Below are positions 1 through 37,842 of a DNA stretch of 64,000 nucleotides, one piece after another. Origin of the DNA: Branchiostoma floridae (Eukaryota; Chordata; Leptocardii; Amphioxiformes; Branchiostomatidae); NCBI RefSeq assembly GCF_000003815.2, contig NC_049991.1:16600776-16664775 (forward strand), written 5' to 3'. A program made the position numbers and the translations under genes. The notes beneath the pieces were generated by a model that was not told the origin of the DNA, searched no databases, and was given only the letters and a program-made list of their open reading frames with translations. Position 1 is the stretch's first letter. Each line of letters begins with the position of its first letter.

Positions 1-677
1 ATTTTCTTGAATGGAAATATTGGTTTACTCTCGGGGCCACCACGGTTCGATACGTAAAAGGCCCAAACTTTTTTTTACATATGATGTATACAAAGGTTCA
101 AACTATAACTGTGCCAAAAATCAAGCAAATTGATTTGCCTGTAAATGACCTAATGGTCAATAAAAATGGTCAAAAAATTGATTTTTGTCAATTTTGGAAA
201 TTCACGAAAACACATCATTTTCAAACATCTGCTGCACCTCACTACAAAAACATTTTGAGCATCACTATATATCATTTTTTTCATTAGAATATGGGTAATA
301 ACATATCCGAGAATCAATAAAATATCAGTTAATTTGTGGGGGCTACAGGAGTCCAAAAGAGGCCTATTTCGGACGCGACCAAGGCCTTCCCTTGCTGAAA
401 ATCCGCCATTTTGAAAAATGGCCGTTGCCATGGCAACCGGTGACCGCAGATCTAAAACTTTGCCATTTTTGTAGGTTTGGACCAAGGCCCTACCACCACA
501 CAAAATTTAAGGAAAATCGATTTTTTGAGTTTGGCCACCCTATGCTTGGTTTTTACAGACAGAGCCTCTTAATTGTGCTGAAAACTGGTGCAATGGCTGA
601 GTTGGTAAACTGCTTGCCTTGCATTTGGTAGGTCGTGAGTTATTGACATCTGATTAAAAAAAATTACACAAACTCAC
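1..677. other. RNF213 intron (left edge), with interspersed repeat copies
   Basis: No coding exon recognised. Positions about 340-555 belong to a repeat whose inverted partner lies at about 5925-6135. Positions 588-650 resemble a decayed tRNA(Ala)-like sequence (GAGTTGGTA..CTGCTTGCCTTGCAT) without an intact B box. An A-rich tract follows at 655-665. Confidence 0.5.
340..555 (+). repeat. Interspersed repeat family A, copy 1
   Basis: The segment from ggctacaggagtccaaaaga to ggccaccctatgctt reappears reverse-complemented at about 5925-6135 with scattered substitutions and small gaps. The centre (ccattttgaaaaatggcc) can itself fold back. No coding potential; probably a short non-autonomous DNA element. 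Confidence 0.75.
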
Positions 678-6600: not shown

Positions 6601-7002
6601 GTACTGCACCACAAACTTCCTGAAGCTGGGCAGTGTGATAGTTCTTCTGTCCATGTCAAAACCTCAACTCCAATTGCCTTTGCCATTGTCAGCATTGCTA
6701 GCCCTTCATAATAGCCAAAGGCTAGTAGGGCACTCGAAGCTGTGTGTCCCAGACAGCCAAACATAGTTCCTACCTGTTTGAGTCCTTTAAACAACGATGA
6801 AGGCGCTGAGTCTCCCTGCATGGCATCTGCCACAATGGTTTTAGCCAGAGACTTGGAGCTGCCTGGCTTGCCCACCAGGAAGAGCGGGATCTGCAGCTCG
6901 ATGCACACCACCATCATGAACACGTTCTCCTTCAGCGCTGTGTTACAGGCGATGTTCGCTCCCAGCTGGTCCTTCAGCTCATCAAGGAACGCATCTTGGC
7001 AT
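678..7002 (-). CDS. RNF213: RNF213 exons 43-53: AAA4 module and start of AAA5/6 region
   Basis: Exons: 6774-7002, 5696-5866, 5106-5335, 4519-4647, 3879-4035, 3550-3620, 2803-2935, 2298-2405, 1815-1900, 1226-1414, 678-801. Exon 43 has FLVGKPGSSKSLAKTIV (P-loop 6849-6872), exon 44 SVVVLDEVGLAED (Walker B near 5740) and exon 45 FVGISNWALDPAKMNRGI, hallmark RNF213 AAA4 motifs. Exon 48 (71 nt) is easy to miss: it restores phase between exons 47 and 49 and allows exon 49 to use the normal CAG acceptor. Exon 50 has NLENLYESLYDALNQ and exon 52 FPIPLINRLEKHFL. The last exon ends EEE followed by GTGAGT, so the frame continues beyond the left edge. Confidence 0.9.
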
Positions 7003-10000
7003 CTTGAGGGGAGAAAAGGATCTTATCTGTCTGAAAATTACATGCTCGATGAATCTTGCATACCTTAGTTCGTCTAATACCATAATAGAAAAATGTTCGC
7101 GGTGGTTTTAAGTTAGCGGTGAAGTGGTCACCGCGAAAACCGTGAACATTAATCCACCGCGAACATTTCTGCATTTATGCAGTTCAGGTTCAAGCCTAGA
7201 AACACAAAATAAGGAGTCACCTTCTTACACATAGTTTTTCGAATACATTCACATTGCAGTCCATAAAACATATCAGACACTGATCCATCAATCAAGATAC
7301 CAGCTAGACGCTGGCTGAAGCAGCATTTGAAGCTTCTCATACCACATCAAAGTCCTATATCATTTGAGGGCTACTATACTTAAAAAAAAACCGGCGAAAG
7401 AACAGTCACAATCTGACTCTACAGTCTATTAGAGGGGTAAATAATAGCTGTGTTAGTGAAAAAAGTTTAAACTTTGTTCCAATACAAAAGGAAACTCACC
7501 ATAAATTTTCGACTCAAGACTTCGACCTTCGTCAGATGAATGAATCGCTGAACTAATCCGGAAGTCGTTGGATGACGTCAGGTAGCAGCGAATCATAAAT
7601 GTTGGGAAGCCACCATCACATTAGTTCAGCGAGTCATTCATCTGACGAAGGTCTTTGGCCGAAAATTTATGGTGAGTTTCTTTTTGTGTTGGAACAAAGT
7701 TTAAACTTTTTTCACTATGGAATTTACCAACACAGATGAGCTTTCATTCGGATAATAGCTGTGTTAGTGTTTCCAAAAGCTGGAACTGGATGGAGCAATC
7801 ATACTTCACCATACCTGTCTATCTCCTGTTCAACTGTCTGTGGTCCCTGGGGGAGCTGGCAGGGCTCTGTGAAGTGTTGTGCCACGTATCTCCTGTAGTG
7901 TTTCCGTGTCTCCAGGCGGGAGTGGTAGCACACACCGATGGCAAGGACAAGAGCTCTGGTGAAGTCAGATATGTGTGCCTGCGACAATATTGGGGTTATG
8001 TGGGTATTGTCAGTAAGATAGCCATGAAGAAAAAAGATTACTGATGTCCATTGTGGCTGTTAATTACTAACATGTACATTGTAGAAGGTCTTGAATTACC
8101 CCCTACAAGATAGTGCAAGTAAAATTAGAGATGTGAAGGTATTTCTGATGTCTACTGTCACAACTATTCTGCACTAGACCACGCCTGCAGCACTTGGGTA
8201 ACCTACTGCCATCAGTAAGCCACAAAATGGTTTGCATTTTACATTGCATTATCATTGAATACTGCAGATAAAAAGATCCAAAATTGTACCAATTAGGAAC
8301 ATTTTCAAAACTTGTTTTTTTCATGGGCTAAAGGCAAGGAAGAGAAAGTGGTGCAGGTAAAACTTGTCTGGTAGAGGTAGTGTGATATCATGTGCAGAAG
8401 TAAATGTAGAGGAATAATGAGAAGATCTTGCTAGATGATAATGAGAGCTGTACATACATTTGCCCTCGTGCTCCTGCCTGTATCTGGCATCAGCTCCCTC
8501 AGTTTACCAGACATTTGGTAGAACCAACAAAGGACAGTCAGTGTTCTCTCTGCATCACGTAGGCTCACAAAGCTGCACTCATCCTAGACACAACATTGGC
8601 TATAGTTAAAACCATATTTATTATGCAATTCAGTAATTCTTTTTTTTAATGCTCATAAAACTGAACAGCTTACTTCTCACTGCCGTACTGAGTCACATGA
8701 CTGTGATATGCTGAAGGTCATAGAAGCAGTGCCGCTGCTAGAACAGGACGGATATCTGGCTAATATAGATTGTACTGTAGCAATCTCCTTGATAGTAGTA
8801 GGGTGGACTGATTGACTGAGATAAATTGATATTGTACAGTTTTTTTTTAATGTGTATGTTTTACTTGGGGTATAGAGGGATTTGTTTCAACTGAATTGTA
8901 AGTTGGAAGTGCTGGGCTCATTTCTCAACGTACGCTGGTGTCAAACAGTCAAAAATTTGCAGATTCTTAAGGTTATTACCTTCTTGCTCCTCATGTATCT
9001 CTGGGATGCGGCCAGTACAGCGCTCACAACCTTTGTGGAATTTGCTGGAAGGCTGTGCTTTTTTACCTGGAAAATGAAACAGGGGGAAAAGAAATCATCA
9101 TCTATAAACAAACATGACTGCAGGAACTATTGCAATACGTAACTCAATTGAAGTATTTATAGGCATAACAATAGTTAGAGCTCTCTCAGGAATAAATCTT
9201 TTACGATGTCTGGAAGAATGAGTGCTATTTGCTAAAAAAACGTAGCAGTAACTTTTAGCAGTAATATCTAATTGTAAAGAGAAAACCAGGAATGTATTAC
9301 GAAAAAAAAAAACTTGACCTAACTAATACTAACGATAGTTAGGCTTTAAACAAATGGACCCCTCTACTACAGCTTCCGTTGAAGACACGTGACTGCAGCA
9401 ATGGATCATAGATGCCAGGTACCCTATATCGCCCCATCTCTGTTCAAAACTTGGGTAAGTGCCAACTATCTTGTTGTGTTGTTGACTAAGGTAAAGTCTT
9501 TTTTCCATTATCATTGTCATTTATCAACACAGATGAACGTTTGTGAGAAGAATCAGGCAAGCTTACACATCTGTTGACCATCTGCACAATGTACTTCTCC
9601 TCCACGTCACTGCTGAGCTGCCCGAAGTCCCAGACCAGAGGCAGCATGCTGGGCGGGAGGGGCTGCACACGGTACACCAGCTGGCGCAAAGGGATGTGAC
9701 CTAATGGATATATCAAGTATCGACTTTTACATCTACAAGAGCTTCATGACAGAGCTATAGAGTCTGAACTCTAAGGAGTCTGATACAGACTAGATCGCTG
9801 GACTGCTTCCGACACTCTTCAACCAAATGAATCTCTCCAGACCCTTTGTGAGTCCCTTCTTCATGGCACTCACCTACAAAGATGTACCCAGGATGGAATG
9901 GGTAGACCTGAACAGAGCTAGGAGTGGAGTAGATATGAACAGAAACATTACCTACTGAAATAGGGACAGGTGAACAAGTGTCATTGCGGTCACCCTACTA

Positions 10001-13000
10001 AAACTATGGGCATATGGGCATATTACACAGGACTGCATATTAGGCCTCAACATCTCCAACTGGGACCTGCTAGAAGCTAATGAGAAGGCTGTGGCCTGGC
10101 TGCAGTACTGGCACAGAACAATGTGATGATGATGATCTACGTATTTGTCAGATACAAACCAATCATAGGTAGATTTTCCTACAAGCATATGAACTACTCT
10201 AGAGATTAGCTGCATACAGTCCACACATACCAAACCTGTCCTTTGTCTCTGTAGCCTTGATATGGTAGCCTAGTCCTGCCTCCTCCAGCCTCCTGATCAT
10301 GTCATATGTGTGTCTGAGGAGAAAAATAAACAGTACTTTAACAATGAAAAATGAGTACTACATTACACATCAGGAACATTTCTCTTCTCATACACATTTC
10401 CTTTACACCAGGCCAAAGAAACTTTTCGGTTTATTACGGTAACACATTTTGTTGTGTCACAAGCTCATAAAATCATTTACAATACGTAGCCTCTGCTAAA
10501 AGACTGTTCTTTACCTTACAGTGATACTTCCCAACATGAACATTTATCAAACAATTCATAACGAAAGCAAGGTAAGATTTCTACACCCAAGCTACCTGCA
10601 TATATCGTATTCTTTTTGGTCTATGGTCCCCCCAAATTCAATCTTCAACAACTTTTAACTACAAAACTTACCTTCTGTAGGGATTAATGGCTGCAACGAT
10701 CTTCAAGCAGCCCTGTTGCCTGTTGAGCGGCTGCCCTGCTATCGTCCCGTCACACATGATCTCTTTAATCAGACCAATGGCTTCTGTGGTGTTTGCCTCG
10801 TCGAAGAACAGCACAGTGTCGATGTTGTGCCGGTCCCTGTTGAACCGGGCAGTCTGCTGAGCTTTCTCCACCTTACGTATGATGTCCTCTGCTTTCACAC
10901 CTCCATGGACCTGTTATATATAACAATTGGCTTTTTATTTTACTGGCCATTTCCATTTATCTGGGGGGTTACATATTACTTGACTGTGTAAATGTGTGTT
11001 TGACAGATCTCTTGTATACCACCCACCAAGTATGCATAGTACAGGAGTGAACTATCAGGAGTGAATTATCCTTGAAGATATTGTATTTGGAGATCTCTCT
11101 GGACACATCTTCATCAGTGATGTAACTAATTACTCTGGTGCCAGTTCACATGTGACCTTGCAGATAAATGTTTCAGTTTCAGTTTCAGTTCAGTTTATTT
11201 ATTTATCCAGGAAAATACATCGCCTATTGGCGTTTTTCAATACCTCCTGGGGGGCCGGGAGACCCCAACATAAAATAACACAAAATCACAACAACTGAAT
11301 CAAAATTGAAATCAAAGGTCAAACTTAAATAACCAAACGTCAGGTGTCAACTATTTACAATACAAATAACTCAGGATAACTTAATATAATGATTGAGCTT
11401 ATCCACAAGACCTTGGATCTACCATCATCAACTGTCAAGTTTATCTGATAGCAGTTTTCAAACAATCAACCAATCAATGAACCAACTAAATTAACCAACC
11501 AACCAAGGAGCCAACCAACCAATTCACCAATTAAGCAGTCAACCAATCAATCAATCAATCAACCAATCAAGCAGCCAACCAATTAACTAACCAAACATCC
11601 ATGCAATTTTACCAACCAACCAAGGGACTAAATCATTAAATCAATCTTTATTAGAATAAACAAAGATTGTTAGAGACAGCNNNNNNNNNNNNNNNNNNNN
11701 NNNNNNNNNNNNNNNNNNNNNNNNNNNNNNNNNNNNNNNNNNNNNNNNNNNNNNNNNNNNNNNNNNNNNNNNNNNNNNNNCTTAGCATCAAAACATAATA
11801 CAGAAATCAAACAAAAGGATCCACTGTGATATGACAGGAACTAAAGTTAAAATATATACAATCAGAATCCTTTAGTCCTGGTCATACAATCGTTTAAACT
11901 TGTGACAGTGTCCTCGCAGATCTTAATTGGGACGACAGGGAATTCCAGAGCACCGCCCCAAATGCTAGTACAAGAAGTCCATTAGAATAAAACTTTGACA
12001 CTGCAGAATATTCAATGTATATAAGATGAACAAAAGTGTGTATTTTGCTTGTAATGACCATTTGAATAAACGGTGGACAGAATTCATTCATAAAAATGTA
12101 TCCTAACTCTTCTAACTATAAGTATAGCTACTAAGTTGAACATTGTTCTGACAAACCTTCATGATGATCATGTTCTCAGGATGTTTCTTGCCCTTGACAT
12201 GGCCGGCCTGAAGGTCACACATGAACTTGATGAGCCTGGTTTTGCCACAGCCCGTCTCTCCCATAATGATGACTGGGATGTTGCACCTGTCAAAGGTCAA
12301 TAAAAGAGACCCATGGATTATAACTTACCACTAGAAATGACACATTCGAGTTTTCTTTACTACGATAATGATGCCTCTGTGCAAGTGGAAACTTAAAGGA
12401 ATCTTCTGCTGATAAATCAAGGAACTGCTGTTCTCTAACAATCTTTGTTTATTCTAATAAAGATTGATTTAATGATTTAGTCCCTTGGTTGGTTGGTAAA
12501 ATTGCATGGATGTTTGGTTAGTTAATTGGTTGGCTGCTTGATTGGTTGATTGATTGATTGATTGGTTGACTGCTTAATTGGTGAATTGGTTGGTTGGCTC
12601 CTTGGTTGGTTGGTTAATTTAGTTGGTTCATTGATTGGTTGATTGTTTGAAAACTGCTATCAGATAAACTTGACAGTTGATGATGGTAGATCCAAGGTCT
12701 TGTGGATAAGCTCAATCATATTTGACAAATAGGGTAGCAAAATTTTAACTTGCAAAATTTTAACTCGCAAACTTTCCACTGACCTGAATCTCATCTGGAT
12801 AGCCAGAATCTTCTTGACGTTGTCTGTTGTCAGTTCATAGGACGGGTCGGGATCATAGAACACATCATGAATGCCCATCACAAAGCACAACTTCTGGATC
12901 TTCTCAAACCTGCAACATAGATTTTATTACAAAAATGTCAAACATGAACTACACATACAGTCATTATAGTGACCACTTGGCTTTTGAGGCCACCTTTTGG

Positions 13001-16000
13001 TGGTCTTTAATGTCATTTTCCCATTGACACAATCTAGTTTGACCATTTTCTGAATTGAATCCATACCCCTGTACATGCCATATGCTTAATACATTGTACA
13101 ATGTTAAATTGATAACATAACCTTTTTACCTACAAATAATAGGCTCAGTTTATCACAATAATCATGATCAAACTGCTAACAGACAGCTTGTTGAAATTAT
13201 TTGTCACTGATCATGAATTCTTCTAATGTATATGTCACAGTAGAGATTGCGATTTAGGACAATCTAGGACAGATATTTAGATATTATAGGTGGAACTTTT
13301 ATAAGTCTGCTGGATTTTACCTGGTCAGGTCATCAAAGTTGGCGTTAAACTTGACGCCGTTGCCAGTCAGTCCCTGGTACAGGTTAGCAGTTATCACATT
13401 CTGCTCGAGAAGCTGTCCAGTAGCGTCAATGACACTCCCGGCACGATCCACATAGAACCCCAGGAACGTCATGGTGTTGTGGTCAGCATTGAAGAACAGG
13501 TATGGGTGAGGGCTGTGGACAAGGTCATATTACATATCATTAATATGTTCTGTATCTTATATGTTGTCACTCAAATGTTATTGTATTGTACGTTGATGTT
13601 ATTTTATGTGAAGGGTGGCAACTTGTAAAGGTTGTTCGAACTTGTTTTGCCCTCCCCATCACTTTGTGATGAATACAAATAAGCAAATAAACATCATGTA
13701 CAAGGTTATCTATTGTAGAATATATATTGTCTAACATAATTCACAACATAGATATATCATGTACAACAGAAATACATTTTGCGGTAATCAGATTATTTTA
13801 ACTTGCCAACAAACTGCCGTTTTGAGCCGATAAAGTCCTAAAAAGCAGCTATATGTGCACCATTATAGCAGTGAGAGCATATCTTAAGATTCGCTGTCTT
13901 AAATTGTTTTGGGTGTAACTTGGGCAAAGTGTACCTGGTCTCCCAGGTTCTCCTTAGCTGGAACTGCTGAATCTCTGCTTGCTGCTGCGGATCATCAGCT
14001 GAAAGTGCCATCTTTAGGGAAGGGCTCTGGTCACTCATGTTCAGGGATGGAGTTGCAAAATCCTGCAGTGTGCAAAGTGTAAGTTGATAAATGGTCTACA
14101 TCTTGCCATTCATAGATAGATGTATATGACATGACATATATATATATATATCATAGAAAAATTGTCCCATAGCCTATTCTAGGCTATAGGGGCAATGGGT
14201 TGTTCTCCCCAAATGAAGTCAGTACTACCCATTTTTACCCCTGGAAGAGTGAGGAAAGTCATGCAAAGTGCCTTTCCCAAGAGCACAACATCGGGGGTTT
14301 TGACTCTAGTACCTCTGAGTTCTTGGCAAAACGCCCTGATTGTTGTGTCAACAAGATGCCAACATGATGCTCATAACTCTGATCATCCTTTCTTTGGAAC
14401 AATGTTACTAACAGGATGATTTTAACTTTTGTATCTTTGGAGGCATTTTGAAAAAGGTTACCTTGGACATGATGATCATGAACTGCACCACAAACTTCCT
14501 GAAGCCAGGGAGGGTGTCCCTGAGAAAGTCCAGACAGAAGGCGGAGTGCTCGTAGTCCTGCAGCTGGTAGTTCAGGAAGGACAGGAAGTGCAGCAGCTCG
14601 GCCCAGGACGGATCCTCCATGCCACAGTAGCTGGGCAAAAACAAACCAGTAAGTTTGGAACTTGTTTGCCCTTTATGAAGCTTTGCATAGTTTACTTGTA
14701 CTGTTCTTTATATAAGAGTTTCATATAGGCAAGCACACATACATGTAGTCACTTGTCAAGCCAAAGATGCTACACTTGCAAATATACCATCAAAAGGAGC
14801 TTGTGCATGTACAATATCACAAATTTGTTTTGTATTTGAGTTGTAACCTGCTACTTCAACCATTGATGTCAAATCTTCACAATCTTCATTCACATGTCAT
14901 AATTGTATCTCTGTCTGCTAAACAACGGTTATGTCAGAAGCCATGACATATTTTTCCAGTTTTTACAAAGGTCTGTCATTACCTGAGAACAGTGTGCAGA
15001 AAGTTCTGATGAGTCCCTTCTGCGTGGGACGGGGTGAAGACGAAGGTTTCCAGGTTGGTATTTGCCATCCACCTCCTGAGGTACTGGTACGGGCGCTGGT
15101 ACTCCACACTCCTGAACATCACATCGTCTACCTGACGCAACCCTGCAAAGGAACCAACAACAATTATGTACATGTATAAACGGCACTTCTTCTAAATATC
15201 CTTTAAAGAAATTGAATTAAGGGTTAATGACCCGCCCCGAGGTGTATATGGTGTCATAACGCCTGGTCCTTTGCTATAACCACCGAATAAAACCACCGAG
15301 TGAGCGAAGCGAACGAGGTGGTTTTATGAGGTGGTTATAGCAAAGGACCAGGCGTTATGACCCTTGTACACCCGCGGAGCAGGTGATCCACTAATCATTC
15401 TTATCTCCTCTGCCGCCCCCAATCTAGGAAGGCTCCGTAATGACCGGTCCATACCCTTGGGNNNNNNNNNNNNNNNNNNNNNNNNNNNNNNNNNNNNNNN
15501 NNNNNNNNNNNNNNNNNNNNNNNNNNNNNNNNNNNNNNNNNNNNNNNNNNNNNNNNNNNNNNNNNNNNNNNNNNNNNNNNNNNNNNNNNNNNNNNNNNAA
15601 AGTGGACTTTTCAACATGATTTTAACCAACACAGACGAACTAACGAGTTTCAGAAGCCAAAGAAGAAACAATCAAAGAGTCGATTCATTCTGACCAATCA
15701 GAAGGAGCAAACACACCGGCCTGGCCGGAATCTGTATGTTACTACGTCATAACGTGGAACGGGGCCTTCTGATTGGTCCGCGGCGCCTGGCTATATGATA
15801 ATATATTCTATAGCTTATGAAACTCGTAAGTTCATCTGTGTTGGTAAAAATCATGTTGAAAAGTCCAATTTTTGCAATGAAAATTAGAGCTTGACTTTCG
15901 TTTGCTACAATACATTGGACATTCTCTCTTTTGTAGTGCTTTACAAAAGAAAGAAATTGATGAATTGTATCAGACAGTAATGTTCATAACATACATTATG

Positions 16001-19000
16001 TCAATATAGAATTGAAATTTTCCTCCATTTCTTGGAGTCATAGTTTTTAGAATAGAATAGTAATATTGCATTGCTTGGTATTTGTTCCCATACACTGTTC
16101 CATGTACTACTGTACGAGCAATATAAAGTTTCTTCATTCACTTTGCTTCAGAGGTAAAAAAATCTATCATCAACTATTTTCTACTATGAATTACTAGAAA
16201 GAATGATGGTGCTGATAATAACTAGAATATCTCAACCTGACACTAAAATAAGTCAACATACCTGGAATAGCTTGTTGACCTTTTGTCAGCATGTCATATG
16301 TCTCCCTTGGCGAGATGCACGTCACTCTTGGTAGCATGGACACAAATGACTTGTTGTCTTCCCTGGTCTGATGTAACAGATATCAATGACAATGTTAGCA
16401 TTGGCGACAGAGAAGTACACCAAATCACATATACTTTCCTCCCACTTCAAGTCTTATGCTAAATAAAGAGAAAAGTTGACTTAAATGAGCCATCATTCAA
16501 GAAAGTTGTTTACTTTTAAATTGACCCCACATAGACATTGAAAATTTTCAAAGTAACACAACTAAGTGCATGTAAGATCTCTGATACAAATTTAGTGTTG
16601 TGGATATAGAAGACAATGCAAGCATGCACAATACATGCACCTTTACCTACTTGTACGACAAACAAATTTTCACACTCTCACGGATCATATCTATATCCTT
16701 GTACTAGTTGTAGTATACAATACATGAAAGGCATCCATACATTCCAGTCTGCTTCTGGATATGTAAGACCATTGTTTTCCTTTTGCCATTGAAATGCAAG
16801 ACATTTTTTGTAATGTACAACATTAGCTCACCTGTTTGTCATCTGCCTGTGGTTTGTAGGTGTGCTCCACCACGTATAGGTCCCAGGGGAGGCGTCTCCA
16901 CACCGCCCCGTCTCTCCCCACCAGACTACCCAGCACCAGGAGGTTAAACAGGAGGCAGTCCACTGCTGTATGTACCTACAACACAATACATCAACATTGA
17001 ATATTGGCTTGTACACACAAATGTACATGTACGATGTATGTCAGAACAAAATAGTATACACGTACATCTTCAGTAGCCCACTGCAGATTATGCTATAAAC
17101 CCAAAACACCCTGAGCATAGAAAATTGACTTTCAAATAGTTAAGGAAGAGTCCACAGTAGCCATTCACAATAAAAAAACATGTTCTCATCTTCAGCTACT
17201 CGGTAACACTACACAAGGTAATCATAAAATCCTGGTTACATTATGCAGTAGGTAACTGTTTTCTTAGAAATATAAAAGCAAACACATTCAGTACAGCCTT
17301 CTGCTCAATACAGTGTATCAATATCAAATGGTACTGAGTGGTAAGATTCTACAGTGACAATCACTTCCAGCTTCACAATCCTGGAAAATCTTAGTAGGAG
17401 TCAAGAAGACGTTAATCTATTCAAGCTCTCAGGATGGTAGCTATAAGAGTTACCTAATAGATACATCAGCTATGCTTTGAGACCCTCATTATCAAGTGAC
17501 AAGAAATGTTTGACAAGGAGCTTTCACTCATGTTCCTACCAAAGGAGAGATGTCCAGATGGATGATTCTAGGGGAGGGACTGGCTGGGTTGACAGAATGA
17601 CGGAGTAACGCCTCAAGAACTGCATCATTGTTCACTGTTGCCTCGTGCAGGGGAACCTTGATGTAGGACAGTCTCCCCCTCAGCACCCTGGGGAGCTTCT
17701 TCTTCAGTTCTTCTGAGAGACGCTGGACGACAAGGGACTTGCCAACACCCGCTCGCTGGGAGGATATCACTCGCACTGATGACCTGAAACGAAATTTTTT
17801 ATCAGTCCTATAAAATTTCTACCAATGTAACATGTGGAATGAACAAACTTAACCATTCTCACCGCTTGTAAACTTTGCCCTGTTCTTGTAGCTTGTTGCG
17901 GACAAAAAAAATAACTGAAAACAGAATATATACATATACATGTACACTATAATAAACAAGTGACATACTGGATGTGGCTTGATTCCAAATTTCAAGTAAC
18001 GCCTATATAGGAGGTACATGTGCATGGCTTGTTATACCAAGCAGACAATTACAAACATTCCTTACTCTCATGCAGAGTTAGTGAATGGAACTCCTTGCCT
18101 GGCTCTGTACTAGATACCCTCACAGTTGAGCAAAGGAACTTGCCTGTCGTAAATGCCTGATCACTCCCTCACTCCAATAATGCCCAAAAAGAGTTCTTGA
18201 GATGGAGACATAGGTAATAGCAACTATCCTAAAATTTCCTTTACCGTTGGTGATCTACAGCTGATGCCATCAGAGTTGTGCCAGCATACTGCTGCTGGAA
18301 CTGTGACAGCAGGTACTCGTGAACATGCTCGTGGGAGGGCACGTGGGGGATGGGCACCTTGTACTGGTCCAGGGCAGTCACCATGTATGACTGGTGCTGT
18401 CTCTCCGATGCACACACCACAGCAACATGATAGCCTGGCAGATGGAACAGACATTTTAGCAGTCATTTGATCTGAAGATGTGCAAAGCCTGACCATCATA
18501 CATTAGGTTTCCTTACTACTTCTTTCATTTTGCATTTCAAGTCTATGCTACGGTGTTGCTGCAGATTTAATATGGCCAACTCATCACCTGATTTCCCTTG
18601 GAAGAGTTTGCACCTCATCTCCTCTGCCCTGACGCTGACATCATAGTCCAGCTGGTCAGCTGCCACCAGGCAGAAGATTCCTCCTGTCTGGTCTCCTACA
18701 GCTCTTCTCCACAGGAGGACCACCTGACAATGGCATTGTCAATGGGTTTAGTCAATTTGATTATCATGTTTCTCTTTCTAATAATTCCATTTGAGGATAA
18801 GACTCAGAATCGTAGTCAAAACAAAAGGAAAAGATACATTTTGCCACATGTTTACGTACATTGCATTAGTGGTAACTTCAATTCAAAGAAGGAGAATGGG
18901 TCATTTCAATGGTAATCTGTCTGTAAAGCATTGGGTTCCTTTTACTTAGGTATACAAACATGTATACAACTGATGTGTTACAAAAGAGGGGTTGCTATAT

Positions 19001-22000
19001 ACATGTAGATATAGATACAGAATACACATACAGAAACAACTTCAGAATATTGCACATTTCTGTCATAAATCATTAAATGCCTTTGTTGTACCAAGTAGTT
19101 TTACAAAATCTGAGAAATAAGGCATAAAAAAACTGTGCATTAAAATCAACGCTAGAATAAAATAGGCAAGACCTCACCTCCTCCAGAGTTGTGTGGGGAG
19201 TACAGATCAGCACTTCCCTGTAAGATGGCAGAGGCTGTGTTGTCTGGCCTTGCATGTACAGAAACAACACTGTCTGCCAGATGTCGTCTGGAGACGAAGA
19301 TACAAGGAGTGAATAATACTGATCAATGGAGTGACATAAAAGTGGTCAAAATTATACATAGAAATTGTCAGACATTCTGCACAGTCAGATAAATTAATTT
19401 GAAGTTATCTCAAGCACAGAAAAGGCAGTATCTGCTATAGAAATAATTACCTTGTGGACACACTACAAGGTTGGGCTTGCCCGCCTCTAAGAATCGACTT
19501 GGCCACTGTCGACCTACAGTGATGTTTGCTGCAAAATAAAGAATAAAGAGATTTAATCACCAATTGATAACACATACCCAAAGCTTGCAATACATAATAT
19601 AAAATGTGCTGTAACTACTATAAATGTGCTATGACCAATTACACAAACGGAAAATCTTGTGCATACATATTAGTCAAGATAAGATACCTTTCCAACGAGG
19701 AAAGCCAACATCTCCTGCAGCTTTCACTTATCATTCCTTGCTCATGCAGCTTAAATCATCCCCTTGCAAAAGTTGACCTTTCCCAAATCCCCCTGTACGA
19801 AGACAGACTATACCAAAAGTAAAGAATACAGCTTTACACGCAAAGTACGTACCAGTGCTGGAAAGATTCCTCAGCACCAAGGCCAGGTGATCGATGCTGA
19901 TGTACTCTTCAAATGTGGTGGACTTCACAGTGGTCAGGTACTCTGCCCAAACTGACTCCATTTTTTTAATCATTGTCCTGGAAATGAGTCAGATTTGGTC
20001 ACAATCCATTCTGTTATCAATCACTCAGTCTCTAGTCAACATATATAATGCTATACATGTAACAAGAAAACAGAACAAAAAGGTAAGGCTACAAAAATTC
20101 AACAGTCTAGTACTCACTCTTTCCTGGGTTCCTCTAGATCTCTGGACAGTGACATACTTGTGAAGCCAGCAAGGGACACAGGTTCTTGTATGGAAGTCAA
20201 CATGATACTGCTGTCTTCCACCATCTCTGGGATGACATCTTCCACAGCAGCAACCATGTCTTCTTCCTCTTCCTCCTTACCATTCAGGACCTGGTCGATG
20301 ACATCATCATCGTCCATGTTGATGATGCACCATTCGACAGCCTCTTCCAGGTTGCCCTTGGTAGCCTTCATCGCTGCCATGGCAACCCGATCTGTCAGAT
20401 CAGGCACCATCTGCTTCAGCTTCTCCACAAACTCCTCCCTCTCTTCATCATCCATGGACCACAGCTTCCTCGCTGCCTCCTCCATCTCTGGTTCTTCGTT
20501 GATGTTCTCCTCTTCCATGGCATCGATGTCCCCTGCCACACGTGCCATTGCCCTCCTGATGTCATCTTCAGCACACAGTGGCTTGATGCTGGACAGCAGG
20601 GCCAGGACTTGGGGCGACACTTTTTCACTGGGATCAATCATCTTTGCCAGAGCTTTGCGTAGAACCACAATCTGCTCGGTGGTGAAGTGATTCAGTTCGT
20701 CGTACTCCAGTCTGGCTTTGTCCATGGCACCCAGCCACTCATCCAGACAGACCTCCATGTACTTTGCCAGCTGGGTCAGCTGTTCTTCAACTGCTGCCCT
20801 TGTGCCATAGAGGACAGGTGTGTCAAAGCCAAAGTTGACCATGACTTTGACCCTTCTGTTGCCCTCACAGTACACAACAGCGTTCCAGTTGTTGAACAGG
20901 ACAGCACCAGCATTGTAGAGGTGCACATAGGCCTGTCCCAGTCTTGTCACACCTGTCAGAATCTGAAATAAAATGAGTGTATGGGAGAGTGAATGACAGT
21001 GAACAAGCTACCATCAGTGAGCAAAAGGGAGCAAATTAGTGAGTGACTGAGTAAACAAGTTACAGAAAACGTTTTCCACATCGTATACAAAAGTAAATAA
21101 TTTTCATCCAGAAAACTAGAAATCTATAGTGGGTATACTTTACACAGAACCAAAAAAAGAAAGACCTTGATGTCAAATTCTGATGACAACAGAAACAAGA
21201 CACATTCTTTTCCATCACATAGACATAGAGAAACAAGACAAAAAACACCTGACCTCCACAAATCTGTCGACTTCCTGGCTTCCCTTGTCAGCCTTCCCTG
21301 CCAGCAGCATGAGCTTACTCTGCAGACTCTTCAGCATGGACAGGTTATACTCCTTCAGCTCTTTAGCAGCCATGTCCTCATCATCAGCCTCCTCAGACTC
21401 TGCACCTTCTACTCTTAGTCTCACCACCGACTCTAAGTCATTCTGAGTAAAGAAAAAGTAAGTAAAAAATGTCTTATGTATCTGACAACCTGCAGTTGTT
21501 TCCTCGAAAAATGAGTATAAAGGCAACTTCCTCTCTAGGCAGAAACTGCTCCCAATGGTAAGAGGGTACATTACCTCTGTTTCATAGCAATTGTAGTAGT
21601 TGTAACAAACCACAGTAAATTGTCCAATGAGTGACTCCTTAACAGACAAAATCGATGATCCCTTTCTAACTTCTCATTATACAGCTTTAGGAAGAGGTTT
21701 TGTTGTAGGGGACGGCAATCACACAATAAAATCTATAAAGACTTGCATGTGAGCATACCAATGCCTGGTTTTGGCCGAAGCATCCGATCTCGTAGACTCC
21801 CCTGGCATTGATGGCTTCAGTCTGAGAGAGGGAGGACATCTCCACAGACCCATGGGAGTCACTCACACCCTTCAGCCACTCCAGGTTGCGGGTGGTGTCC
21901 ATCTGGAATATAAGGAGATAAAGGAGATAAATTTTTCTTCACCCTTCTCAGTTTTCTGTTCTTCTTAATGTTTTGCAAAGTGTTGTGCTGGTCCTTTTGC

Positions 22001-25000
22001 TACCTCTCTCGTCTAGACAGATATACTTGGCAAAATTTATAATATGATCTTGTTTTCATTCGCCTTTTTGAACCTCTGACCGATCAAATAGTCTTAAAAG
22101 TCAGATTCTGTATTCAGCCAAAGCACAAGATATTTAGTTAAATCCAGCATATAGATGATGTTCAAAGAAACTATACCAAATTCCAAAAGACAACGTATGC
22201 ATAACAGGTGGTGCATATCGAAGTTTAAGAGTTGGGGTAGATATGAGATTGTACCAGGGAGTATAAAGTAAATCCTGACCAGTTTCTTAGGCAGGTGCTT
22301 GTCCTTCTCCAGGGCAGTCCAGAAGTGCCTGCAGCACTTCATCAGTGCATCAAAGTCAGATTCCTCCTTCAGGTCATAGATGAGGGGTGCATATCCAACA
22401 CCAGCTGACAGAAGGCAGTTCACCTTGTCCACCTCTATGTCACTCTCACCTGCAGAGATGCTGGCCAGGTCCACAAACACCTTCAGCTCCTTTGTATCTG
22501 AAAGTGTGAAAGTTATCATGATGATCATAATTAATTAGTCAGTAATTGCATGTCATCATCACCATCATCATGTACATGTAGTTCGTTAGATGTTTGTACA
22601 GGGGTTCATTTGCATGTATTATTAGTACAATTACCATCCATAAGGACCTCATTTGGTCGTTACATTTTTTGTGTAATCAATTTGAAATACAGTTACAAGA
22701 ATGCTTGTGAGATAACTATATCTTCAAGCAAAAAGATTCCACAACCCATGTCATTTGGCATGTACATTTACAGCAGCATACATGCATTTCTAAAAGGCAT
22801 GATGATGTACCATGGATCTTTGTTCTCAGCCAGTCCACCAGCCGCTGACACTTGACAAACATCCTGATGCTCTCAATCCTCTCCTCTGTCATCTCTGCAA
22901 GCAACTTCCCTGCATTCACCACTTTCTTGTTGATGGAACTCAGCGGATTCTGCTTGAAGTTCTTTGCTTTCTGTATAAAAGAATCCATCGCAGGCACATT
23001 TATAAATGTCAGACTACAGTACATACAAGTATGCTGCTAGATAGGAGGGTGACTTGATCAAATTCCCGAAGTATGTAGCCCTTTGGGTTTGAGTGATCAC
23101 AGCACGGTTTTGTGGGAACCGCAGATAACAAGGAAAGAGAACTTTACCAAGTGCAAGACAGTGAGACCTATCCGCGACTCCGACCGCCGAGTCTTTGGCC
23201 AATGGATATGTTCTCAATCCTGGGACGAAGTGTACACATCTCCTACCTGTGCCGGCAAGGCCGAGGCCTTTTACACAATAATGGAAGATGCTATAAACAA
23301 GTTTTTCCCAACCAAGCAGGTAACAATGCACAAAAATGACAAGCCGTGGTTAAAACCAGACATCAAGGACATGATTCGCCGACGGCAGAAGGCATTCTCA
23401 GAAAACAAGACTGCCTTGTGGAAATACCTGCGTAACAAGGTGAACAGAGAAGTAAAAGAAGCGCGAAAGTCTTTCTACAGGGACAGGGTACAAAATCTCA
23501 AGGTAGAAAATCCGGCGGATTGGTACAGAGAGATAAAGACCATCCTGAATATACAGCAGTCAGAGCTCTCACTCAACATCCCCGGTCAAGACGAAGCAGA
23601 CAACACTTTCATCGCAAACCACATCAACAAGAAGTTTGCAGAGGTGGCAAAGGGAAGACCGCCCCTGGATCCTGAACAGTTACCAGCATACAGGCCCGTC
23701 AAGTCATGCCCACCTGAGGTCAACGTGTGGGATACCTACAACCGTCTGCGCAAACTGAAGGCCGGCAAGGCGTCGGGGCCAGACCAGTTGAGTACTAGAA
23801 TCCTGAAGGAATTTGCATGTGAAATAAGTGGTCCGGTCACAGACATGAATGCTTCTTTCAAGGAAGGTTACGTCCCACAAGTATGGAAGGACGCCACAGT
23901 AGTGCCCTTACCCAAGTCACAACCTCCATCAGTCGACAAACTCAGACCAGTCTCTTTAACATCTCAACTCGCCAAGGTCACCGAGTCCTTCGTTTCGAAC
24001 GATTTTGGAGGACATAAGTGCGTCACTGGACCAACAGCAGTTTGGTTGCCTAAAAGGCCGCTCTACAACACTGTATCTGGTCAGCTAGACTTCCTCTGAA
24101 GGGAATCTGAAAAGGCCAAGAACATTTGCACAATGGTTATGACAGACTTTTCAAAAGCCTTTGATAGAATAGACCACACTTTAGCCATCCAGAAGCTGTT
24201 ACGACTCGGAGTGCGGGGGGAACTAATCCCGTGGGTCTGCGACTTTCTAACCCAGCGGCGGCAAAGAGTTTGCTATGGAGGCCAACTCTCTGACTGGGAG
24301 GTACTGACATGTTCAGTGCCACAAGGGACCCTCCTAGGTCCGTTAATTTTTCTAGTGGTGTTTGATGACGCTATGAGGGACGCACTGATTAATCAGTGGA
24401 AATATGTTGATGATCTGATTTTCACATCGTTTGTAAGACCAGTACTGGAGTATTGCGCGCCAGTTTGGCATCCGAGCCTCACCTGCGCACAGTCAGACAG
24501 GCTTGAAGCAGTGCAGCGGAGAGCTGTTCGGACAATTCTAGGCAGACACTTCACTAACTACGAACAAGCCAGGAAGAACTTAAACATCCCACTGCTGTCG
24601 GACCGCAGGCGAGATCTGTGCTTTAAGTTCGGAACCTACTTGGAGAGACACAGACCGTCAATGCTACCACCAAAGAGATCGGACTATCACAACAGAACCA
24701 CCAGAAACTGTGACAAATATCGACATGTGAAATGTAGGACTGACAGACTAAGAAACTCGCCGATCCCCTACGTTGTGCGCCTTTTGAATGCCTAATGTCT
24801 TGGTATCTAAGGATATCTGTTGTGTTTTAAAGTGTTGCTACACGCACGTATTTGGCTTTATCAATGTCAGAATTTTAATCGTTATTTAAATGTTTAAGAT
24901 ATAATTGATGTTATAGATGTTTTAATATTTCTAGAATTAGCTCTGGCTGGACAAAATTATCTGTACGAAATCCGCAATTCAGCCAAACAGGCTGCGAGTG

Positions 25001-28000
25001 ATTTTTTACCAATAAACCATTCATAATCATCATCAAGTTTGGACTAGAAAGATAAAAACCTTTCACACAAGATCGATCCCTCCCAGCCACTTTCTGCATG
25101 TTTTGTTTAAAAAAGGTAGAAGACAACAGCCATCTAGAATAGTCCTGTACATGTCTATACCTTACAAAATACAATACATGCAATGCCCATTATACTGAAC
25201 AAATAGTTTATCAGTCTACATACCGAATGAAGCAGGACCTCCACTCCTTTGAAGTCTCCCTTCAGGTTGTACTTCTCCTTGACATCTTTCACCACATCTG
25301 CAGCATCCAGGTGTTTGTTCAGCTGGTGGTACTGTTGTATCTGTAGCACCCGGTCCTTGATCCATCCCTCTCTTGGATTCTTCGCCAGCATCTTCATTTC
25401 ATTCTCCAGGTTCTTGTTTTTGAACTGTCCAAATGTTTCGTCAACCTCTTGGAGTTTGATGTTCCCATCTTTGACACTCTGGCGCAGTTCCAGCCACTTC
25501 TGATAGGCGGGTTTCCACACCTGGTTGAGCACATCATCAACAGAAAGTGCAGGCATTGCCTCCTCCTCCTCACCAGGCTCTGTTTGTCTCATCTTCTCCC
25601 AGATCTTGTTGAAGACGGTGCTTTTGCTGAGGCCTTCCAGGTGTGACAACATCTCCCTGAACTCAGGAGTGATGCCAAAGTAGGTGATGTTGGGGGGTTG
25701 ATTCAGGTCAAAGGAAACATTGGTGATGTCATCACCGGCTACTGGTTGACACAGGTTGCTCAGGGATATGGTTGAAGTGTCTCTTCGCACCTTTTGCACC
25801 AGCTCTTCACAGGCAACTATAACAGAAAATATGGCAACATTTGACAAATCAATCTCTACGATGTCATGTTTTAGTCAATATACGAACAACATCAATGTCA
25901 TTTCATTACAAAGCTTTTCCAAACCCTTAACCTGTGTTGCTTACAACCAATTTGGTAAATTAATGAAACTAAATCATGATGCTCAGCAGTAAATATACAA
26001 ATATTCTTAAACAACACGAGAAAAAACTTTCAATCAAACTTCAGAAAAAAAGACCATAAAATATATTCTTAAAAGCTTTAAGCTTTGTTGCTGTAATCAT
26101 TTTGGTGTAAGAATGACAATGATTTCCCACCTGGTTTGATGTCTTCACACATGCCAAGGAAACACTCAATCTGCCTTGTTTCTGTCTTGATAGCTGCCAG
26201 TTCCTTTCCTCTCCAGTCCAGAACCTTCTCAAGCTGCTTGACAGGCCAGGCAGAATCCCCCACCTTCACTACCATGTTTGCATCATGCTTTCCACTTCCC
26301 TTGGCCTTCTTGGTCTTATCTTCCTCTTCGCCTTTGACAACCACAGCAGAGCAGAGCTCGAGGAACTGCTTCTTGTGGTTCAGGAGCAGCTGGAGGTGGC
26401 TGATGATGATGGTGGCTTTTGTGAGCTCCTGGATTGTCGTGCCCAGCAGAGACTTGTAGGAGGCAATGTGGGTTTGGCTATCTTCATCCAGGACTTCCAC
26501 CAGATCTGATGCCTCCCCTGCACAGATGTTGTTGTTTGTTGAATATGCAAGATGAAAGAAGTTATACGTTAGTTATATGCACACATGAGAAAATGATGAC
26601 GATCATACAAACCAAAACAATGGCAACAATTATTAGAAAAATACTTGCCCAAAACTAACTTTCATCATCACATGGGTACAGTACTGTACCAAATCAATTG
26701 CTTTGGAACTTTAACTATTATACACATGCAGATCAACATCACATCATGCAATGCTACATGCTAACATGCATACATGAATTGTGTATACTGGTATCTTAAG
26801 ATGGCCAAAGGCTGCAATATTTAACCACATAAAAAGGACAATGTCCTGACCAAAGAGTTTGAGGATCCCAGCACAAGGCTGCCATGTGAGCATGTGTTGA
26901 AGGAGCCTGAAGTCCGTTGGTGGTGTTCTTCCCTGGTTGGTTGCTGGCCATGTTCGGCACAGCATTCTGGAGAACAAGCTGCCATACTTATACTTGGACT
27001 CATTTGGTGACCTTGTGTAGCTGGCTACGATCTGCTGACCATTTTTGCTCTGAAACACAATGAAAACACTAAGTGTAACTCAGATTTCATGTCTTTCTGA
27101 GCAACCATATGCAACATTGACTAGTTACATTCTTTAAAGTGACAAATAGTCAAAATACAAGATAGCCAGAAAACTATTGACAGCATTATTGTTAACTATA
27201 TGATCTGTCCTTCCAAGGTAAAATTCCCATTTATAATCTGTGAAACATAGTATCAACTGGGTTCGATAAATAATCTGAAATTGTTTTTGAAAAGATCTCC
27301 TGGCACAAAGATGTGTACCTTAACAATATTGTCCACTGCATCAAAAGCTGCATCGCTGAAGCACTGTGCCAAGTGTTGAGGGAAGGTGGAGGTGTCCAGC
27401 GAACAGAACAGCTCCACACGCTCCATTGTGGAGATCTGGAGTAAGTGGATTAAATTTCAGTTAATACAACAGAAGAGTGATGATACACATACCTACAGAA
27501 CAACAACAAAAAACATGCAGCTAAACATTGTTAATTTTCTTGTTTTATATGACTGTACATTGCTTTTAGAAAGACATTGCATACTCAACTGATGCTGTAC
27601 ATATTGCTTTGTAGCATTTATGTTAAATTATGAAGTAATCAATTACATATAAAGCTAATAATCTTTGACAAGTCTTATAGTACCTAATAACCGATCATTT
27701 AGCATTTGAGACTTGGTAGAATCCCAGAAAGTTTTTTCCTTCAAAGTTAAAACTATGCTATACAGAACTCTGGAAACTCACAGCAAGGAGACGTTCACGT
27801 AGCATCCCCAGTAGGCTTTTGTTCCAGTAGCTTTCAACCTCTTCCTTTCCCCAGTCTACACTGAGAAGACCCAGCCATATCTAAGAAATACAATCATATA
27901 TCAACATCAAGTAAAAGTCAAGATGATGTGGGTAACAGCTAGACATGTACACAATACATATGATGTACAATGACATTATATATGAAATATACTATATGAA

Positions 28001-31000
28001 ATACTAATGTATATGTAACGCTATGGGGGACAGACTTGTCTGGAAAGAGAGAGTGGACATGGTCCAAGTAACCCGCCCTTGATGATGATAATGATATGAC
28101 ATATTATTATTCAGCCATTAAACAATTCTGTTAGTACACTTTTAATTGCTGGTTGGTACGTTACTTTCTTTTTGGTACCTTCTACAGTACAAAAATAACA
28201 AGCGCATGCAAATTTTTGTACCTCGATGCCATCAATGCACATTATACTACAATTAACAATACTGAAAAGCACATTACACACACATGTATCTCTTACATGA
28301 CAGTTGATAACCTTCAAGATTAAAACAGAGATCAAGAAGTTGACAGTACCTTGCTCTCTTCCTCTGCCCCATAAGAGATTCTTACATTCAGCTGTTTACC
28401 CAGCCACCTTATCACCCAGGATGTTTCCTTCTCAATGAGTTTCATCATATTAGTCTGCATGTTTTGTGCTTTGGTTTCTGTTGCAGAGCCCATGCGTTGC
28501 CAGAGATTACTCATACAGGCGGCAGCGAGTCCTACTGCACCAATGAGGATGGGGTGACGATCACGATAAGTGCAGGCTTCTAGACAACTCATCAAGACGT
28601 TATGAGCAATGCAGAATGTCTGACATGCCTCTTGCCTTGTTGTATCATCCCTGCAGAAGTACATGTAGAGATCAACTTTAAATATGCATCACTACTGCGA
28701 CACAACTAAGTGCAAGCAAAATTGTTCTAACAAAAGTAAGAAGAGGTACTTGTACATGTACATGAACAGTGAGTGTGCACAATGTTCCTTTACTGCCACT
28801 GCCACAAGAAATTTGAAAACACACATACATTATCAAAATCATTTACCATGATGCAGGTAATATCAACGTACAATGCCTGCTGAAAAGTATACATTCAACA
28901 CTTCTCAGATGTTCATTGTACATGTATAATTTGGTGTTTAAGCGACATACTTCCAGCTATAGACCCCCGTCAGTATGGATCGCTCAAGGGCAAATCCACC
29001 ACGCATTATCTAACCAGCCTAATGCATTACTTGGCAAGTACAACAGATAATCCTGGCTTCCTGACTGACTTCACACGCGCTTTCGATCGTGTGCACCACC
29101 TGACTGCAGTCTCCAAACTCCTGGACCTAGGCGTCAGACGTTCGATCATTCCCTGGGTATGCGCCTTTCTATCGAATCGTCAACAGCGCGTTAAGTACCT
29201 ACAAGTCGTGTTTCTTTGGGAAACGCTTACTTGTGGTGTACCGCAAGGAACCAAGTTGGGTCCCGTTGTGTTTCTCGCGCTCATAAATGACGCGTCACCG
29301 GTAAGGGAAGACTCAGCCGAGACTTGGAAGTATGTTGACGACATGTCTTTGTCGGAGGCAAGGCACGTTACACAGGACTCCACAGTGCAAACTGACGTGG
29401 ACAAGCTACATGCAACTGAACCCCTCCAAGTGTATTGTACTGCTAATATGCTTTATGCGAAACCGTCCTCCCCCACCTGTAGTGACTGTTAAGTCAACAA
29501 CACTTGAAGTAGTTGAATTCGCGAAGATCCTAGGGGTGATCTTTCAAGCTAACCTTAAGTGGGACATCCACGTCAACATGATGATCAGCAAAGGCAGCCG
29601 CAGGCTGTACCTGTTACGAGTATTAAAGAGACATGGTCTAGACTCTAGTGACTTGACATTAGTGTTCTGTGGATTTATACGACCTATCTTAGAATACGCG
29701 TGTCCGGTATGGCACCCAGGAATCACTAGTGCCCAGTCTAGGGCCATAGAGAACGTGCAAAAAAGAGCTTGCCGCATAATTCTTGGTTCCACCTTTGCTA
29801 GCTATGACATGGCTCTAGTCCAGTTGTCACTTCCGTCTCTGTGCAACAGACGGCACGAACTCTGTACAAAGTTTGGTACCTCCTTGCTGAGCTCTCCGTC
29901 TTTCTCAAAATGGCTACCGCCAAACCGTGTGAGCCTACATGGCAGAAACCTCAGGTCCAAACACCAGATAACACAATTCCACTGCAGAACCTCTAGGTAT
30001 AGGAAGACTACACTACCATACCTTGTCGACTTGCTCAATAGTTCAAAATGCTAGCTATGAATACATGTAAGTCTTGAATGTATACACAGTTATGTTAAAA
30101 GTAATTATTGTTATTTTTAAAATGTGTTGAATTATGCACTTCTATTGTTTTTCATTTTAATTGTAATATGTGTAAAACATACTGCAATTCAGCCGAAAGA
30201 TATAAAGGCTGCCATTGTATGTTATTGTATGTCGCATGACGCGATAATAAACCATTCATTATTATTATTATTATTATAATCATCATACATTCAAGCACTT
30301 AATACAGAGATTAAAATTACAATATTATATATGTATCGCTTTCAGATAATCAGCAGCTACAGATACATGATTGTATGGCTCACCCTTTGTCTGCAGTGTC
30401 ATCACTGACATGACTGGCAGCAAGTGCTGTGGCTGTCTGAAGAAGTGCCAGAACATCCTGAATGGGGGGAAAGGATATTTCAGATAACCAGTAAGAACAT
30501 AATAATATGCTGTAGGCAACATTCAAATTAGTCAAGTAGATTGAACTGGAAAACTAGTGCACTGTTTAGGCCATTTCTAGGAAACATAATGTATCTGGAG
30601 ACAGGCAGTGTTATGATTTTGACATGTTTGACCAGAGACAAGGTATTCATTCCCTCTTACATGTAGATATTAATGACATACTAGATTCTGCATGGACCAA
30701 AATTCCACCTTCCCAAATTTTACAATATCTTGTTGACACCTTAGTGCTGTTCAAACCATACAGACACTTCCATGTTATGACTGGAACAAAACTATATGTA
30801 TTACCTGTCTGTCTTCCTCGAGCGACAAGGAATACCCAGTTGCAACATTGACAGCAATGGCTGCACACAGAGTAGGGAGGCTCACAGTCTTCACTGTCAG
30901 GGGGTCCAACAGTTCCTTGTTGGTGAGAATGGCTGCACAAGATCGTTCTAGCAGTGCATCAGCATCGAACACAGCTGGGTCAAGCTCCTTCATCACTGCA

Positions 31001-34000
31001 AGGGGTTTCTCTGCAGGACTAAAGATATACAAAAGTATCATATTCGAAGTATTCCTTTTTGTACCCAGGAAATAAAAATCATTGTCCAACATGGATTTTG
31101 ATGCATGCAAATTTATAGAATTACATTTGAAAAACAAACAAAAAATTTCTTACCCATATTTGATGTCCTTTCTGAATTGTCCATACTTGAGTCCTTCTAG
31201 ACCCCACCATTTCTGTGATGTTTTCTGAAAGTCTGTTGTGGGTGCCGTTGGTTTGAAAGGTGATGACTCATTCCGCAAGAAGTGGAGGACAGGTAGTGCC
31301 AGCAGCCATCTTGACTTCAGCATCAATGCATCTCCTGTCATAGCGGTGTTCATGATGCTAACAACAGCATTTGTGACCTCCCTACAAAAAGTTGATTTAA
31401 GAATATTAATTATAACATTCCTGAAGAATCCAATGACATACAATCATTTGTAAGAGAAAACTACTTCCTTTATTGTTGTAAAAATTTGATATGTGACAAT
31501 CAAAACTCAAGTTTAATGTCATAATATCTGCAGAGAGTTACATTTTTGTAAAGAACAACTTTTCAACACATAATTAACACAAGAAGATTAACACAAATAT
31601 GTCCACAATGAATAATTTGACAAATCTCCAACATCACTTACTTCAGCCTTCCATCCTGGCAGAAGTGAAGAGAAAATGCCTCAACTTCGCGGCAACTTTT
31701 GTCCTTGGCATCAGGCCTGATGAGGAGCCCCTCGAACAGGGCATGTGCCTGCTTCTCGCTGAGTTGAAGACTGTACCTGTCTACCAGCCAACAGATGGAG
31801 AGGGCAGACACGATCCGTGCCTGGGCTGCCTCTGGGCTCTCGATCTTCTGTTCCTTTGTCTTTGCCAACTGGTCCAGCTTTGGACCAATGTACTCCATCA
31901 GTACCTGTAATGACATAAACATTCATCCCTTTACTGTCTGCTATTCGCTGTGTATGTCCTTCAACGAATCATTTTGAAAGGAGAGCAGTGTAATACAGTA
32001 CAGTATAAGAAGGATCGATAAAGCTGGGATTAAGCAAACAACTGAATCAAGGTAAACACATTGAATTCTTACCTTTGAGATGGAAAACTCCCTAAGTTCC
32101 CATCTCTTCCTATTGTAATAACCATCAGAAACTGGGCTGGTCCCCACCCAATGACAGACAGCCTGAACCTGCTTCATGACATCACATGCCAGTAGCTCTT
32201 CACCCTGTTGATCACATGTGAAGCCTTTCCATTGTGGTAACCAGGCTTGGACAGCAATCCGACGATCGTGGGCCACTTTCTCCTCGACACTAGTCCATCC
32301 AATCAAAGACTTAAATTTGTCAAGACGTCCGAGCTCCACTTGCATGGCATCATTGTACAGGTGCACGTCACCTACAATAACAGTCAATGAGGTAATTTCT
32401 AATGAATATGAATCACACAGTAGCAAGGCATTATGTCTATACATGTCCATGATTGTATAGCTGCAATTCATGAATGTATCATGATGGCAACATTTATTCC
32501 TTCAAGTGGAAATTTTTGGTAAAAGGTGAGATATCAGTTAAATGTAGCAGTAATCATCATTACAATAGACAAAGTTACTTCACCCATGTCAATCTCTTAC
32601 TTCTGAAAAGAGCAAAATGTACAAAATATGCAATAATATATACACAGAAAACATAACGGCACTGAACTTTAATCCAACACATTCCAGCAAATTCCAAACT
32701 GAACAATTAATAAACAAGCGGGCTTTAGCGCATTCTGGAAACTGTTTAGTGCATTGTTTACTATGTTTCCCCGGCCATTGCTACACATGCATTGGTCTGC
32801 CACTTTCTGTTGTGTCGCGAGAAAATAACATTTCAAAGACAGTGTAACTGATAGCAGGTCCTTTGGGATTCTATTCCCAGTGGAACTTTAATCCAACACA
32901 ATAATATAACAAGGCTGTTTATCTATGGATTTCATATTTACAACGACAAATTTGTATCAATCTGCAGGCACTTACTCAAGGTTAATTGGCAAATCGGCAT
33001 GTCGGTAAACTGCTGATAGTCGCGATCAAAACACAAGCCCCAAAATGCATCAACCAGCGGCAAATCCGTTCTGCTGTTCTACTACACAGTTATGAAGTTC
33101 TATGAAACTTTTCATCCGTTGTTTGGCTACCAAATGGTGGCAAAATACGTTGTTTGTGAATGGTTCCCAAAAAATATACCCGCAAAACACAGTACAAACT
33201 CCCTACAATACGTCCCCCATATGGGGCTGTTGGTATCGCCAGTGAGATCCGTCGTACTGGCCTTTGGATGTGATCACTTTCATAAATGGGGGTGAAGGGG
33301 TGTGCTGAAATATGATTCAAAATGGCGCGTGTTCGGATTTCCACTGAATTTACTGTAACAAAGCCTGGCCCTGTACTTGAAGAGGGACACTTCAACTTAG
33401 TTCAAGGCATGTTGGTTGTGTTGGATGGACAGTTTATTAATATTTCGCTATATTTACTGTGATGATTAATGTGTAATGTGAGGACGAAGAGTAGGGTTGC
33501 TTGAAATTACAATCGCTGCCCTCCTCCCACGGCTTGATAACGGCATGAAAACATACCAGAAGATTGATTAACTTGTCAATGCAACATGCGATCTTTGTGA
33601 GCTCAAACTTACAAGGTTTTGAGTCATATACCTTACTGGTTTTGTAAAGCACTCAAAAGAATTTGCATACCGGGGCTAGTTTTTGACTGACAGATGGGTT
33701 CTGAAAAGTGTTGGATTAAGGTTGCGTTGGATTAAAGTTCAGTGCCGTTACTTCTATTACATTATTACATATTGAAAATGTTGTGAAACATAACAGACAG
33801 AAGTACCCAGTGAAGTAGCCCATGACTATGACCAATCAAATGTTCTGTATATTACAGTTCTTCAATGTTTGCTTTGAATCGAGAGAAGCGGTTCGTTCAA
33901 CGGTTTGGTTTGCATGGATGGATGCATGGATCTAACCAAACCCTTCTAATAGCCCTTCTATACGGCTGATAACGTAATTGAGTCAGCGTGGCCGACCATT

Positions 34001-37828: not shown

Positions 37829-37842
37829 GTTTAGGCAGTCAC
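35416..37842 (-). CDS. RNF213: RNF213 exons 1-4: zinc ribbon and disordered linker
   Basis: Exon 1 is 37657-37828 plus a short 5' UTR to 37842, where an AG acceptor shows that a non-coding exon lies upstream. It begins MECPSCGEQ and continues with CHECG, a four-cysteine zinc ribbon like the RNF213 N-terminus. Exon 2 (37242-37256) is a 15-nt microexon adding GSGEG. Exon 3 (35812-37055, about 415 codons) is hydrophilic, rich in Ser, Glu, Lys and Pro, predicted disordered, and contains a 50-residue tandem repeat (36325-36687). Exon 4 (35416-35519) is a Lys/Gln-rich basic stretch. Phases 1, 1, 0, 2 close correctly across these joins. The exon 3 acceptor is ambiguous between 37052 and 37055; both keep the frame. 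Confidence 0.85.
36325..36687 (-). repeat. 150-bp coding tandem repeat in RNF213 exon 3
   Basis: Two full 150-bp units (36538-36687 and 36388-36537) and a partial third (36325-36387) repeat head to tail. Each encodes 50 residues beginning TSAGV.GFE and containing VSSLVKEGSGHIEAGQGDTE, ending PPKPADD. Units 1 and 2 are nearly identical, so the expansion is recent. It lengthens the disordered linker between zinc ribbon and CBM20-like domain without breaking frame. Confidence 0.9.

Follow-up and report, generated by a model that had tools for sequence, protein, structure and literature searches.

The question raised by this locus is whether an RNF213-family protein of Branchiostoma floridae carries a ubiquitin-binding module that is not present in its human and mouse relatives. 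The window analysed is a stretch of 64,000 nucleotides, and all positions given here are those of the window. A first-pass annotation of the sequence had reported a 38-residue segment with a UBA pattern at 20321..20434, flanked by acidic runs and placed between the stalk and the AAA region, and had held that vertebrate RNF213 has no UBA domain at this position.

The segment is coding. It lies on the minus strand within a single 845-bp exon of an RNF213-family gene (20118..20962), which is preceded by TTTCAG, containing the AG acceptor, and has GA followed by GTGAGT at its donor end. The exon splices in frame to the next exon (TMIKKMESVWAEYL...LVLRNLSST, 19853..19977, minus strand, delimited by its own splice sites and frame), the codon being carried on without a stop. 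A single open frame spans an acidic stretch, the segment itself, and a second acidic stretch, and the minus-strand translation of 20321..20434 is EFVEKLKQMVPDLTDRVAMAAMKATKGNLEEAVEWCII, exon residues 179 to 216. The upstream part of the exon, residues 3 to 148 (20525..20962, minus strand), is conserved RNF213 linker sequence that aligns to residues 1652 to 1792 of human RNF213 in 8s24 (phmmer, E 1.1e-16 for the exon alone), and because of this alignment the strand and the frame are secure. When the exon is joined to its neighbours, the match to human RNF213 from the linker to AAA1 has E values of 8.2e-97 to 1.1e-96. From its splice sites, frame, and homology to human and mouse RNF213, this one exon combines conserved linker sequence, acidic tethers, and a UBA/CUE-like domain.

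The gene as a whole is assigned by sequence to the RNF213 family, having the homologous linker and the Walker A and B motifs of AAA3 and AAA4. The motifs that we take by eye to be these are GETGCGKTRLIKF and FFDEANTTEA for AAA3, and GKPGSSKSLAK and VVLDEVGLAEDS for AAA4. By eye, the gene runs off the left edge of the window, and what is presumably the last recognisable RNF213 piece, judged against the human sequence, is near 657-839. The RING/RZ E3 module is outside the window and, given the family membership, should lie further along the gene.

Structure prediction, one of the checks proposed in the first-pass annotation, gave a three-helix core. In a confident single-sequence AF2 prediction of an 86-residue construct, helices are found at 24-37, 43-53, and 57-67. 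The core corresponds to exon residues 174 to 217 (20318..20449, minus strand), as delimited by AF2, the CUE and UBA_7 profiles, and the VIA structural alignment, and AF2 adds a short helix after it at residues 221 to 229 (20282..20308, minus strand). The domain is thus larger than the 38 residues originally described. When the whole 284-residue exon is modelled, a confident fold is found only at about residues 171 to 230. The predicted bundle is compact and superposes on UBA, CUE, and TS-N domains, which places it in the UBA-like clan. Its neighbours by structural alignment include the UBA domains of USP5, hHR23A, and EDD/UBR5 and the CUE1 domain of SMARCAD1, with the UBA/TS-N domain of EF-Ts giving the best superposition among the matches listed. 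No weight was given to families missing from the VIA list. Since the profile matches, the single-sequence prediction, and the structural alignment agree, it is very probable that the segment adopts a UBA-like fold.

Acidic residues surround this fold as had been described, with D or E making up as many as 9 of 20 residues on either side. The N-terminal stretch covers exon residues 151 to 172 (20453..20518, minus strand), with blocks of pLDDT 37 to 45 up to residue 170, and the C-terminal stretch covers residues 230 to 252 (20213..20281, minus strand), with pLDDT below 50 from residue 231. Both were delimited by composition, and from the predictions these tethers are probably disordered or flexible.

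Among the Pfam families, the closest by sequence is CUE rather than the classical UBA. With the whole exon as query the top two families are UBA_7 (22.2 bits, E 1.3e-4) and CUE (20.4 bits, E 4.1e-4), both below their curated cut-offs of 27 and 21.1, CUE by just 0.7 bit. In the profile search of excised segments, also proposed beforehand, CUE (PF02845) is over its cut-off of 21.1 each time, with 24.5 bits for the 38 residues at 20321..20434 (E 2.1e-5), 25.0 for 62 residues (E 1.4e-5), and 23.7 for 86 residues (E 3.8e-5). The match is of equal length and covers positions 5 to 36 of the 42 in the profile. For the exon and the excised segments alike, UBA_7 (PF22562) stays below its cut-off of 27, at 16.3 to 25.1 bits (E 2.4e-5 for 86 residues; 16.3 bits and E 0.0093 for 38), and UBA/TS-N (PF00627) stays at 14.6 to 16.9 bits against a cut-off of 22.4.

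CUE domains have an MFP motif and a di-leucine in alpha3. The candidate contact residues here are M187-V188-P189, an MVP in place of MFP, and W-C-I at the presumed di-leucine positions, so that the canonical ubiquitin-contact motifs appear from the sequence to be present in part only and to be non-canonical. Outside repeat proteins, the best four PDB sequence matches are to USP13, USP5 (two chains), and plant UBP14, all weak (E 0.0068 to 0.034), and two of the four bear UBA-domain titles. These are different enzymes with a similar fold, as is UBR5, an E3 with a tethered UBA, and the MGF/Y loop of their UBA domains is absent from the domain in the window.

Other matches were set aside. In the PDB search with 62 residues, designed PPR repeat chains rank first (E down to 4.3e-8), and a PPR reading was rejected because each repeat contributes 2 to 7 bits and the total is summed over repeats in the five chains shown. 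Enkurin weakens from E 0.0012 in the whole exon to 0.077 in the 86 residues, and DUF2621 has E 0.26 and 0.033 in the same two queries; neither is listed for the 38 or 62 residues. An NCBIfam profile search gave no useful match, and no relative was found among the viral contigs or prokaryotic genome contigs searched.

The position first given, between the stalk and the AAA region, can be refined. The linker of mouse RNF213 extends from 1291 to 1774, with the AAA core beginning after it, and resembles the dynein linker both in fold and in its position above the ring (PMC7311170). By sequence alignment, the domain is placed at the C-terminal end of this dynein-like linker, beside AAA1. Flanking linker and AAA1 sequence is shared, in the same order, with human and mouse RNF213. 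Between the conserved anchors the window has 179 residues (query 331-509), including the UBA/CUE-like domain, whereas human RNF213 has 87 (8s24 1793-1879; the stretch used is identical to the deposited chains) with no recognisable domain, a surplus of 92 residues in the window. The mouse counterpart would be at about 1697 to 1787, provided that 7oik carries its 13 extra residues at the N-terminus. On alignment and profile evidence, nothing equivalent to the domain can be recognised in human or mouse RNF213, and it is for these two that the earlier statement on vertebrates is supported. Among the papers listed in searches of the open-licence literature, no title or abstract opening mentioned a UBA or CUE domain in RNF213, although automatic annotations of the domain may exist for RNF213 entries of other invertebrates. 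In the sections consulted, the UBA domains named in PMC13199130 and PMC13061254 belong to proteins other than RNF213, and those of PMC3140517 and PMC4632019 contain nothing on invertebrates.

It is possible to explain these results without an added, folded domain. An acidic helical segment might mimic the UBA pattern by chance, as could be argued from whole-exon scores just below the curated cut-offs and from the presence of another acidic run in the same gene (5105-5368). This is very improbable. None of 20 shuffles of the 86-residue construct matched UBA, UBA_7, or CUE at E<=1 (the best E for any family was 0.0047), two models of the clan agree on the native sequence, and the only confident fold in the 284-residue exon is the domain. 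In 42 ORFs of the window, hand-picked on both strands from 120 stop-to-stop ORFs of at least 90 residues, UBA-clan names are absent among the best 25 of 69 families (down to E 0.026). Search space can be roughly accounted for by counting the minus-strand ORFs of at least 35 residues in 1-6000, 6000-17600, and 22000-38000 (50, 82, and 113); their total of 245, multiplied by 1.3e-4, the E of the best family in the whole exon, comes to about 0.03. The domain might instead be the diverged counterpart of the 87-residue human and mouse stretch. MAFFT does set human FLPDCLDL against MVPDLTDR of the domain, and that stretch has no significant match in either the domain or the next exon: alignment searches with 19853..19977 did not match human or mouse RNF213 significantly, and when the stretch of either species is aligned locally with the domain or the next exon, as good a score is obtained with 422, 334, 202, and 125 of 1000 shuffles. 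Against divergence are the 92 additional residues, the absence of any Pfam family at E<=10 from the human and mouse stretches, and the order of the blocks, which suggests that the following conserved block is adjoined by the next exon rather than by the domain. The query without the presumed inserted part still aligns as two blocks. Length and block order thus favour insertion, and divergence seems improbable.

The function of the domain is a separate matter. Because it belongs to the UBA clan, the domain may bind ubiquitin, and we put at roughly one in two the probability that it works as a reader of ubiquitin, or of a ubiquitin-like protein, in an invertebrate member of the family of giant AAA/E3 proteins. 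The acidic tethers, the deubiquitinases among its sequence neighbours, and the precedent of UBR5 would all be consistent with a reader, whereas the M-V-P in place of MFP, the W-C-I in place of the di-leucine, and the EF-Ts, NAC, and Mex67 domains among its structural neighbours point away from one. Some of these neighbours are not ubiquitin readers, and the protein with the best superposition, EF-Ts, is unrelated both as a protein and in function. They provide a precedent for a true UBA fold that serves in protein-protein or intramolecular docking, for example to regulate the linker above the AAA ring. Docking is a possibility that we regard with some doubt, since low-confidence acidic stretches on both sides are more in keeping with a mobile reader than with a docked piece, and the best neighbours by sequence, repeat proteins aside, are the UBA regions of deubiquitinases.

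If the domain is a ubiquitin reader, a parallel exists with UBR5, another giant ligase, whose flexibly tethered UBA is required for chain formation and captures the acceptor ubiquitin (PMC10830417). By analogy, a role in chain extension or in recruitment, as first suggested, is plausible. A small, autonomously folding CUE-like domain on acidic tethers just before AAA1 could allow RNF213 copies that have ubiquitylated a target surface to grip that ubiquitin, which would favour retention of the enzyme and recruitment of more copies in a feed-forward manner. It could also present the acceptor ubiquitin for chain growth. The coats formed by mammalian RNF213 on Salmonella and Listeria require the ligase activity of the RZ finger, this activity is dispensable for those on Toxoplasma vacuoles, and the route from ubiquitin deposition to coats is described as unclear by the authors (PMC11549300). 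Human RNF213 bound GST-ISG15, with binding to GST-ubiquitin at background only (PMC8486878), so compared with the human protein a ubiquitin reader would be a gain. A more speculative and rather unlikely extension is that writer and reader are joined in one chain, with the tethered CUE/UBA domain gripping ubiquitin that the same enzyme has placed on microbes and the coat propagating itself by way of ubiquitin, and that mammals replaced this with ISG15 sensing. An RNF213 with a natural UBA/CUE-like domain would offer a direct way to test how ubiquitin deposition promotes the protein's own coat on microbes.

Several other features of the RNF213-family gene were observed. Two copies of a 99-nt piece of the AAA4 Walker-A exon are present in this minus-strand gene, at 6415-6513 and 6765-6863, 350 nt apart and 97% identical. 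By eye, the copy at 6415-6513 has no exon start, and the repeat reflects either an artefact of assembly or a partial duplication that is recent. The acidic run in 5105-5368 (minus strand) is EEEDQEKEDEEDDDGSEEEEDQD, in an apparent AAA4 loop before KKVAFVGISNWALDPAKMNRG. A zinc ribbon, MECPSCGEQVLAKQKFCHECG, at 37451-37867 (minus strand), with Zn_Ribbon_1 over its cut-off, is presumed to be at the N-terminus of the protein. Introns of the gene contain long ORFs, at 23053-24792 and 28884-30051 (plus strand), that by eye resemble the remains of non-LTR retrotransposons. Runs of N at 11681-11780, 15462-15598, and 50745-50870, 363 bases in total, are assembly gaps, two of them within the gene.

Elsewhere in the window, a 557-residue ORF at 45158-46828 (minus strand) has a NACHT domain (E 1.2e-13, 51.7 bits against a cut-off of 26.7), and an ORF at 41683-42120 appears LRR-like by eye. 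An fn3_4 domain is present at 58730-59230 on the minus strand (E 9.9e-37), and presumably resembles the FN3 domain of ATF7IP.
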